Assembly: GCA_027493945.1 (NCBI GenBank)
Contig: JAOSJU010000001.1
Location: 2,356,001 to 2,420,000 of the forward strand
Source of the DNA: Burkholderiaceae bacterium
GTDB lineage: Bacteria; Pseudomonadota; Gammaproteobacteria; Burkholderiales; Burkholderiaceae_E
Reading direction: 5' to 3'
Length of the DNA: 64,000 nt
The stretch's first letter is position 1; every line of letters begins with the position of its first letter. Below are positions 11,421 to 30,525 of this stretch, one piece after another. A model generated the notes under the pieces. The model was not told the origin of the DNA and made no database searches. It worked only from the letters and a program-made list of their open reading frames with translations. The position numbers and the translations under genes are program-made.

Positions 11421-11446
11421 CGGGGATCATCGTAGCGTGAACAGGC
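11421..11446 (+). repeat. Solo copy of the 26-bp end sequence of element 2
   Basis: The 26 bases here match 30402-30427, part of the right terminal repeat of element 2, at 23 of 26 positions by hand. They share CGGGGA, then ATCGTAG, then GTGAACAGGC. Only one arm is clear; upstream 11390-11405 (GTTCAGGCC...CCCCGG) is at best a faint inverted partner. It lies between the Crp/Fnr gene and the second parS site. Confidence 0.6.
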
Positions 11447-18958: not shown

Positions 18959-20500
<1,542 letters not shown>

Positions 20501-20550
20501 AAAGCATGAATGAATCTACTGCGCGACCCGATCTCGCACCTGCGATGCTC

Positions 20551-20568
20551 GCCGTACTCGCGTACGGC
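20551..20568. repeat. Hairpin in the atpA-atpG spacer
   Basis: GCCGTAC-TCGC-GTACGGC is a perfect 7-bp stem with a 4-base loop in the 162-base gap between atpA and atpG. A 41-codon frame across the gap has no ribosome site and resembles nothing known. The hairpin may be a small repetitive extragenic unit or an mRNA processing or stability element inside the polycistronic message. There is no T-run after it, so it is unlikely to be a strong terminator. Confidence 0.55.
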
Positions 20569-20662
20569 TGCGCTTCTCGGCGCGACCTCGGGCCGCTCGC
20601 TACGATTCCTTCACGCTTTCTCATCGTCTAAACGGTTGAATCAGGGCTAACCAGGAAGGTCC

Positions 20663-29503: not shown

Positions 29504-30162
29504 ATGCCCGACACCGTTGCCTTCATCGGCCTCGGCGCGATGGGCGCGCCGATGGCGGCGTGGTCGCAAGTGCCGCGCCCGCCACGATCGTCGTCGACTC
29601 GAGCACCAACACGCCCGCGATGGCGCGCGAAGTGGCGCAGGCCGCCGCCGCGCGCGGCCTCGCCTATCTCGACGCGCCGGTGTCGGGCAGCGTGCCGCAG
29701 TCGCGCAATCGCGAACTGGTCTTCATGGCCGGCGGCGACGCCGCGGCCTTCGAGGCGGCGCGTCCGCTGCTCGACGCGATGGGGCGCATGGCCCTGCACG
29801 TCGGCGCGAGCGGCGCCGGCGCGACGATCAAGCTGGTGAACAACATGCTTTCGGGCACGATGACCGCGGCGCTCGCCGAGGCCGTGTCGATCGCGCAGGC
29901 GGCGGGCGTCGACCCGCAGGCGGCGCAGGCGATTCTCTCCGAGGGGCCGGTCGCCTCGCGGCTGTTGCGCAGCAAGCTGCCGAAGATGCTGGGGCGCGAC
30001 TTCTCCGCGCAGTTCCAGCTCGCATTGATGGACAAGGACCTGCGCTACTTCCTCGCACTGGCGCAGCAGGTCGACCGCCCGGCGCCGATCGCATCGCTGG
30101 TGCGCGGCCAGTTCCAGGCCGCGTGCCGTGCAGGCTTCGGTGCGCTCGACACCAGCGCGCTA
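29504..30162 (+). pseudogene. 3-hydroxyisobutyrate dehydrogenase-like gene with internal deletion and interrupted 3' end
   Basis: The start MPDTVAFIGLGAMGAPMAA is the NAD-binding beginning of the beta-hydroxyacid dehydrogenase family, but at about 29557 the frame jumps. The next matching segment (VVASAAPATIVVDSSTNTP) belongs about 55 residues further on in relatives. Some 165 bases of the Rossmann domain are therefore missing, joined at a GGCG repeat. The rest is good: DAPVSGSVPQSRNREL, the catalytic-Lys helix GASGAGATIKLVNNML and the C-terminal helical domain. At 30163, right after DTSAL, element 2 begins. Removing element 2 would continue in frame for ten codons to a TGA at 30462-30464. As it stands the protein cannot bind NAD. 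Confidence 0.75.
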
Positions 30163-30431
30163 GAGGGCCTGTTCACACTACGATCGTCCCCGCGTGAGTC
30201 CGAAAAAAGCGCGCAATCAAGGCGCAAAGCGCAGCCGTGGCGGGGCCACGGCGAGCATTTGCAACGCGGAGTGCGCGCTTTTTTCGCACTCACCCTCCGG
30301 GCCGGGGCCTGCCGGGCCGCCACACTTCGTTGCCGGCTCCTTGCGTGGCACCGCCACGCGCGTCGCCGGCGCCTCGTTTGGCGGCCCGGCAGGCCCCGGC
30401 GCGGGGACGATCGTAGTGTGAACAGGCCCTC
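30163..30431. repeat. 269-bp element with perfect 32-bp inverted ends and two internal foldbacks (element 2)
   Basis: The ends 30163-30194 and 30400-30431 are perfect 32-bp inverted repeats. Inside, two stems stand side by side. Stem A is 30195-30215 with 30272-30292 (21 bp, one mismatch), around a GCCGTGG-CGGGG-CCACGGC hairpin at 30234-30252. Stem B is 30301-30322 with 30379-30400 (22 bp, perfect), around GCGTGGC-ACC-GCCACGC at 30343-30359. Nearly every base can pair, giving a three-way-junction shape. There is no coding capacity for a transposase and no clear target-site duplication. It seems inserted in the 3' end of the dehydrogenase-like gene. Part of its end recurs at 11421-11446. The remaining 30432-30525 holds only that gene's possible tail. 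Confidence 0.9.
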
Positions 30432-30525
30432 GCACACATCGGCGGTGAGGCCGCGGCGCACTGACGCGCCGCGGCCGGGCTCGGCGCGCGCCCGCGAACG
30501 CCCCGCGGCGATCCGCGCCGTGGCG

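Follow-up and report, generated by a model that had tools for sequence, protein, structure and literature searches.

The interrupted gene and the element within it

In the 64,000-nt stretch of Burkholderiaceae contig JAOSJU010000001.1 analysed here (positions 2,356,001 to 2,420,000 of the forward strand; the window), a dehydrogenase-like gene, which from its sequence we take to be of the 3-hydroxyisobutyrate-dehydrogenase type, is interrupted by a short Y-shaped element of a family that we call A (Table 1). Both arms of the Y carry one hairpin module of about 65 nt, which is also present in elements with other ends. An earlier note, made from the letters alone, had described perfect 32-bp ends around two adjacent stems with inner hairpins, and all of these were recovered. 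A perfect 32-nt inverted repeat within 300 bp has a chance expectation of about 1e-10 in the window (simple base-composition estimate), each arm contains an inverted repeat of its own (I3 in arm 1, 30194-30218/30269-30293, 92%; I2 in arm 2, 30297-30325/30376-30404, 93%), and the 269 nt fold as a stable three-way junction, as DNA or RNA (z = -17.45 and -17.65; 200 dinucleotide shuffles, none as stable). The inverted ends are indeed perfect out to 30163 and 30431, the limits first proposed, but other copies place the true ends at 30165 and 30429 (GGGCC...GGCCC), so that the outer GA/TC are altered flanks. At about 265 bp the element is too short for a transposase gene, and only two open reading frames of at least 60 aa, both mechanical (75 and 72 aa), lie almost wholly within it.

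Table 1. Coordinates of the element, its parts and related features in the window
Feature	Position	Strand	Remarks
Probable degenerate one-arm relative	20499..20621	-	Module 20534-20586, 25.1 bits, E 4.8e-5; short inverted ends
Interrupted dehydrogenase-like gene	29504..30162	+	Also lacks 187 bp at about 29554
Y-shaped non-autonomous element, family A	30165..30429, 265 bp	.	30163-30431 with two matching outer bases per side
Left terminal inverted repeat	30163..30194	+	Perfect 32 nt; core GGGCCTGTTCACACTACGATCG; outer 20 nt resemble both ends of an IS5-family insertion sequence (L420)
Arm 1	30195..30292	+	Outer stem 30195-30218/30269-30292 around module 1
Hairpin module 1	30211..30275	+ (forward strand)	80.7 bits, model R1
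Hinge CCCTCCGGG separating the arms	30293..30301	.	
Arm 2	30302..30399	-	Outer stem 30302-30321/30380-30399 around module 2
Hairpin module 2	30319..30383	- (forward strand)	78.5 bits, model R1
Right terminal inverted repeat	30400..30431	-	Perfect 32 nt
Severed last codons and TGA of the dehydrogenase-like gene	30432..30464	+	

The left end directly follows the codons for DTSAL, as is seen in the reading frame. Removal of the 269 nt joins this frame to ten further codons and a TGA at 30462-30464, as had been predicted, but the product is one codon short of the gene in a relative (genome G008), which reads ...DTSALVAHIGGEVPPR at the insertion point and then stops. Thus the gene does not end naturally before 30163. 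The two parts of the interrupted reading frame lie in different frames, and 187 bp of the G008 gene are absent from the window gene; the insertion is therefore not the sole damage to it.

Copies and empty sites

A search of the genome with the element returned 18 full-length family A copies, which are 90-100% identical, 16 of them 96-100% to the window copy. They have inverted ends of 30-32 bp, which in the alignment of the copies read GGGC(C/G)TGTTCACAC...; the flanks are TA-like. For nine of the 18 copies, the joined flanks were compared with 25 genomes, the own genome included. At the window site, alleles running continuously over the junction were found in four relatives (G008, G005, G014 and G012); the other flank matches end before the junction. 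Empty alleles were also present at four further sites, namely L003 (five genomes), L018 (three), L009 (three) and L013 (one), and the G004 site orthologous to L018 holds a shortened remnant of the element (L267).

Copy number and empty sites together establish mobility. Being multicopy, short and without a transposase gene, with inverted ends and with empty sites in relatives, the element can safely be called a miniature inverted-repeat transposable element (MITE), in agreement with the first reading of the locus, which the likeness of its ends to those of a plasmid-borne insertion sequence (IS) also supports. With mobility already evident, a promoter or terminator unit was set aside as an explanation. 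The duplicated target of family A is likely to be TA, often within CTAG, judging from the letters at the empty sites: CTAG in all three alleles at L018; at L003, among five genomes, CTAG once and CTAA three times; and CTAT at L013, or three of the five sites examined.

A folded module shared by elements with unrelated ends

A covariance model, R1, built from 22 examples of the module, recovers 53 strong matches in the own genome (at least 64.6 bits) and one at 26 bits. The 18 family A copies account for 36 of the 53; the other 17 lie in one-arm elements, which fall into families B1 (eight), B2 (five) and C (four). Between families A, B1/B2 and C the ends agree at 4-11 of 22 positions (16 of 22 for B1 against B2), while the modules are 58-85% identical, the lowest values overlapping chance (shuffled mean 57, maximum 67). 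The target duplications differ in kind as well, being of the TA type or TCA/TGA; a perfect TCA or TGA is found at 12 of the 13 family B copies (B1 and B2). The author of the earlier note knew of no named family with this layout; that the arms are the conserved part, common to elements with unrelated ends, could not be seen from the letters of the window.

The module is widespread in the class Gammaproteobacteria (in the GTDB sense, including Burkholderiales). Of 274 genomes sampled from the class, the own genome included, 60 have an R1 match (E up to 1e-4), and these belong to 53 of 222 genera. An AATGG-type module pattern hits at least 120 stretches in named genomes, and of the 80 loci listed 76 have an R1 match (E up to 0.1); among the hosts of these 76 are Thiodiazotropha, Sedimenticola, Thiohalobacter, Competibacteraceae, Giesbergeria, Rhodocyclales, Colwellia, Pseudomonas and Parahaliea. 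The same pattern had no match in viral contigs, and the other searches for the module were made within the class. A module element from another locus (L111) gave no match in phages, and a phage origin was rejected on these two results. Against plasmids L111 gave one short match, and the element at L355 matched four plasmid records; the family A element found no match in the plasmids searched, nor did L111 in the E. coli genomes searched.

The arrangement of the arms is conserved. Among 77 aligned loci, all 41 close module pairs (less than 120 nt apart) are inverted, forward then reverse, with a gap of 38-44 nt and 102-109 nt from start to start; six other neighbouring pairs lie 171 nt to 5 kb apart. 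Of 57 two-arm elements, 51 have a recognisable hinge of the CCCTNCGG/CCCGNAGG type. We aligned 124 modules (119 distinct) from 77 chosen sources. In this alignment, which is fitted to the model and so leans towards structure, 92.9% of cells pair, and both partners have changed in 16 of the 17 pairs. The covariation score, 0.634, is higher than in any of 500 shuffles, which average 0.172. The loops AAGGCG and CAACG (motif AAGGCGC.../...GCAACG) are nearly invariant throughout.

These features bear on a rival explanation, in which the element is an ordinary MITE whose arms are the ballast of one old lineage with drifted ends, the likeness to ISs being due to chance or descent, with neither a change of partner nor a function for the arms. 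Several end types do have a loose pattern in common (TAG followed by a CTGTT-like stretch), solitary and minimal end-only forms exist as if the arms were dispensable, and the matches of single ends to ISs are weak by E-value. However, drift of this kind sits poorly with modules that stay more alike than the ends around them, with nearly invariant loops and with two kinds of target duplication, of which that of family B matches an IS with the same end. We therefore regard this explanation as unlikely.

No Rfam 15 family reached its gathering score in the window, and in 20 element loci only two tRNAs exceeded theirs; the arms match M23 and several mir families weakly, below the gathering scores. 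At L099 (1432-1479) and L110 (1589-1636), in two genomes, the match spans all of M23 (RF03006) and scores about 28 bits, also below gathering, and M23 may, on this likeness, derive from such an arm.

Strand preference of the arms

Read in its forward orientation, the module has far more G-T than A-C pairs (173 against 11, with 1715 Watson-Crick and 131 other cells), with the qualification that 120 of the 173 come from three positions and that related sequences are not independent. A second count used 51 two-arm elements, which were oriented and folded with G-U pairing disallowed. It gave 34 G-T against 10 A-C in arm 1 and 12 against 44 in arm 2 on the same strand, or 44 against 12 on the forward strand of arm 2 itself. 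Together the arms reach 78 against 22 (p = 1.6e-8), while the inverted ends, as internal control, show 17 against 22 (arms versus ends, p = 2e-4). The wobble preference points to single-stranded folding. Since the two modules prefer opposite strands, this folding probably takes place in extruded or single-stranded DNA, which would be favoured over one transcript.

That the modules might instead be transcribed structured RNA (a regulator, stability element or small RNA), with transposition incidental, is suggested by the stable fold and by the strong preference for G-U type pairs over A-C in the forward orientation. But a single transcript would favour only one of the two modules of an element, the Rfam searches matched the arms only weakly, and orientation to the flanking genes is uninformative (9 of 16 one-arm copies undecided on both sides, with 16 of the 17 copies scored). 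An RNA unit accordingly seems doubtful to us.

An inverted pair of strand-specific hairpins also recalls the REPIN, which is an inverted pair of hairpins of the repetitive extragenic palindrome (REP) type. Here a REP-associated tyrosine (Y1) transposase would read the folded single strand, and a Y1_Tnp match was indeed found in 12 of 15 genomes searched. No such match (PF01797) exists, however, in G000 (the own genome), G008 or G002, which carry many copies, none of 30 fetched Y1 loci holds the module, and the TA and TCA/TGA duplications fit DDE transposases. This makes a REPIN-like element very improbable, and membership in the REP-associated tyrosine transposase (RAYT)/REP system was rejected on the missing resident Y1 match in those three genomes.

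Insertion sequences with matching ends

The ends of the module-bearing elements were compared with those of ISs, one end type at a time. The family A end matched five plasmid records, of which three were opened. One is the 809-bp IS5-family IS L420, both ends of which (TAGGGCCTGTTAACACTA...) resemble family A ends and whose first protein piece belongs to NF033580 (112.5 bits, cut-off 110). The search for a transposase with matching element ends, as proposed in the earlier note, gave one candidate on a plasmid and none in the own genome.

For family B, the relatives of the window copy, the candidate is resident. The six examined copies of an own-genome IS1182-family IS (1645-1647 bp) all have the same TCA/TGA duplication, and the protein of one of them, L183, belongs to NF033551 (357 bits, cut-off 270). 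The outer 12 nt of B1 equal one end of this IS only, the other end reading GAGTTCGTGAAC. Several of these IS1182 copies (L183, L212-L216, in G000) are surrounded by a short palindrome, as though the loop of a hairpin had been the insertion point.

An Azotobacter-type end matched 22 records. Six were opened and gave four ISs bearing it at both ends (L416, L417, L419 and L423), of which L416 and L417 share neighbours and may be one insertion; L418 showed one such end only, and L424 no partner end. The proteins of L416 and L423 belong to NF033580. The end type GGGAACCTCTGCACGAATC matched 19 records, and the four opened comprise two IS5 ISs of group NF033581 (L446 and L448), whose own ends agree at 16 of 20 positions, and two one-arm module elements, L445 in Cupriavidus and L447 in Diaphorobacter. 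For the end CTAGTGTAGTGTTTCA, near that of family C, most of the 22 records are chance matches; the one opened is an IS630 IS (L449) with this sequence at both ends and an NF033545 protein (259.5 bits, cut-off 100).

R1 was run on eight of the ISs with matching ends (L148, L416, L419, L420, L423, L446, L448 and L449), and none of these holds a module inside its ends. We count the weak R1 matches found in IS loci as chance: 22.1 bits in L123, a plain subterminal hairpin in an IS with other ends, 12.7 and 12.6 in L135, and 15.6 in L416, outside the IS. Two ISs adjoining copies were rejected as partners, L145 (PF01609 match, beside L006) and L184 in G022 (IS1182, NF033551), which have other ends and merely lie at the border. 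In three genomes with dozens of ends (G329, G218 and G206) no DDE_Tnp_1 (PF01609) match was found, and the partner transposase may have been lost there.

Proposed explanation

We consider it probable that the element is a non-autonomous MITE inserted at a TA target in the dehydrogenase gene, with an interior that belongs to an end-swapping folded lineage whose arms are read on a single strand. An IS5-family transposase (NF033580 group), present or past, would move family A in trans, cutting at the inverted ends, as the ends and the target suggest. The interior is a pair of inverted module copies and does not resemble an IS remnant. The same module appears, in one-arm or two-arm form, between ends similar to those of IS1182, another IS5 subgroup and IS630. 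The lineage thus seems to endure by taking on ends suited to the transposases at hand. Each module would fold single-stranded, probably in extruded or single-stranded DNA, and its conserved loops could be bound by a putative host or transposition factor, with an advantage that outlasts changes of transposase; recognition of the single-strand fold by such a factor has even odds at best. Still more tentatively, and rather less probably than not, what is inherited would be the folded module: a structural, transposase-independent parasite of Gammaproteobacteria, which takes over ends from unrelated DDE transposons (IS5 subgroups, IS1182 and IS630) and is maintained because a putative conserved host factor recognises its folded single strand in a strand-specific way.

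Several observations weigh against the proposed explanation. As to the target, just 5 family A copies among the 17 scored (of 18) have TA on both sides, the window copy is flanked by GA/TC with no TA duplication, and the L009 empty site in relatives reads CTCAG, not TA. As to the partner, the annotated transposase frame of L420 contains stops, and of the three plasmid records opened only this one is an IS, the other two showing no partner end. Neither pattern searches of the own genome nor 14 of its regions round solitary ends yielded an IS with family A ends, and its IS5 (NF033580) IS L139 has other ends, as do L142 and L135, which share those of L139. Single-end matches to ISs are weak (E 0.1-9), so that the weight lies on the two-ended matches, and a fifth end type, CTAGTACTC, matched no IS, none of its 11 records being convincing. 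Finally, wobble tolerance cannot separate RNA from single-stranded DNA.

Relation to known systems

MITEs are normally defined by ends that tie them to one transposase, and the interior is treated as ballast. Like IS5-family MITEs, the present element is short, has no transposase gene, and has long inverted ends, which resemble those of an IS5 (NF033580) IS, and a likely TA-type target. Unlike them, it has as interior a conserved folded module pair that is also found with other IS ends. It shares with REP and REPIN sequences the inverted hairpins in many copies, and differs in its long perfect terminal repeats, its DDE-type target duplications and the absence of a Y1 transposase match from the own genome. 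In an excerpt of a study on P. fluorescens (PMC2718517), the R0/R2 repeats are described as intergenic, with inverted ends equal to those of resident ISs, and movement in trans is proposed for them; as presented in that excerpt, each is tied to one IS and has no shared interior module.

As far as we searched, a folded interior spread over a class with ends like those of four IS groups is new, and the open-access literature, to which the search was largely confined among journals, yielded no description of such a unit. In the present elements it is the ends that change, and the interior that stays conserved throughout a bacterial class; this suggests that a folded unit, of DNA or RNA, has a role in the success of transposons. 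The motif AAGGCGC.../...GCAACG, as an inverted pair 38-44 nt apart, offers a handle for finding a binding partner. IS110-type elements have natural targets in these elements, which could also serve as a marker when the exchange of transposases is traced.

Solitary ends and elements adjoining copies

The outer 16-23 nt of the family A end (in some cases up to about 32 nt) also occur alone, at 11427-11445 in the window and at L031-L034, L219, L220, L223-L225, L228, L233, L234 and L278-L282. Many of them are preceded by CTAG or a TAG stop, and unique sequence lies beyond them. These may be remnants or something else. Matches to the end pattern, paired copies included, exceeded a reversed control in all five genomes compared, in G003 and G005 only about twofold. 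In G002, L222, L226 and L227 are end-only palindromes of about 38-60 bp without arms.

The same element, which we take from its sequence to be of the IS110 type, adjoins 5 of the 18 family A copies at one base (L004, L005, L014, L016 and L017, in G000). L011 ends in the other end of this element, as a remnant, and at L005 the IS110-type element is itself broken by one that is presumably IS66-like. IS110 elements use REP palindromes as targets, according to part of one report (PMC11208160), and the MITE QMITE2 of Coxiella is described in an extract of another as a target of an IS1111-type element (PMC10969869). QMITE2 is a different element from the one described here, in which five copies are flanked by the same IS110-type end. 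IS630 prefers TA in CTAG; an annotated IS630 adjoins the Azotobacter copy L414, and its end sequence also follows the copy in L413.
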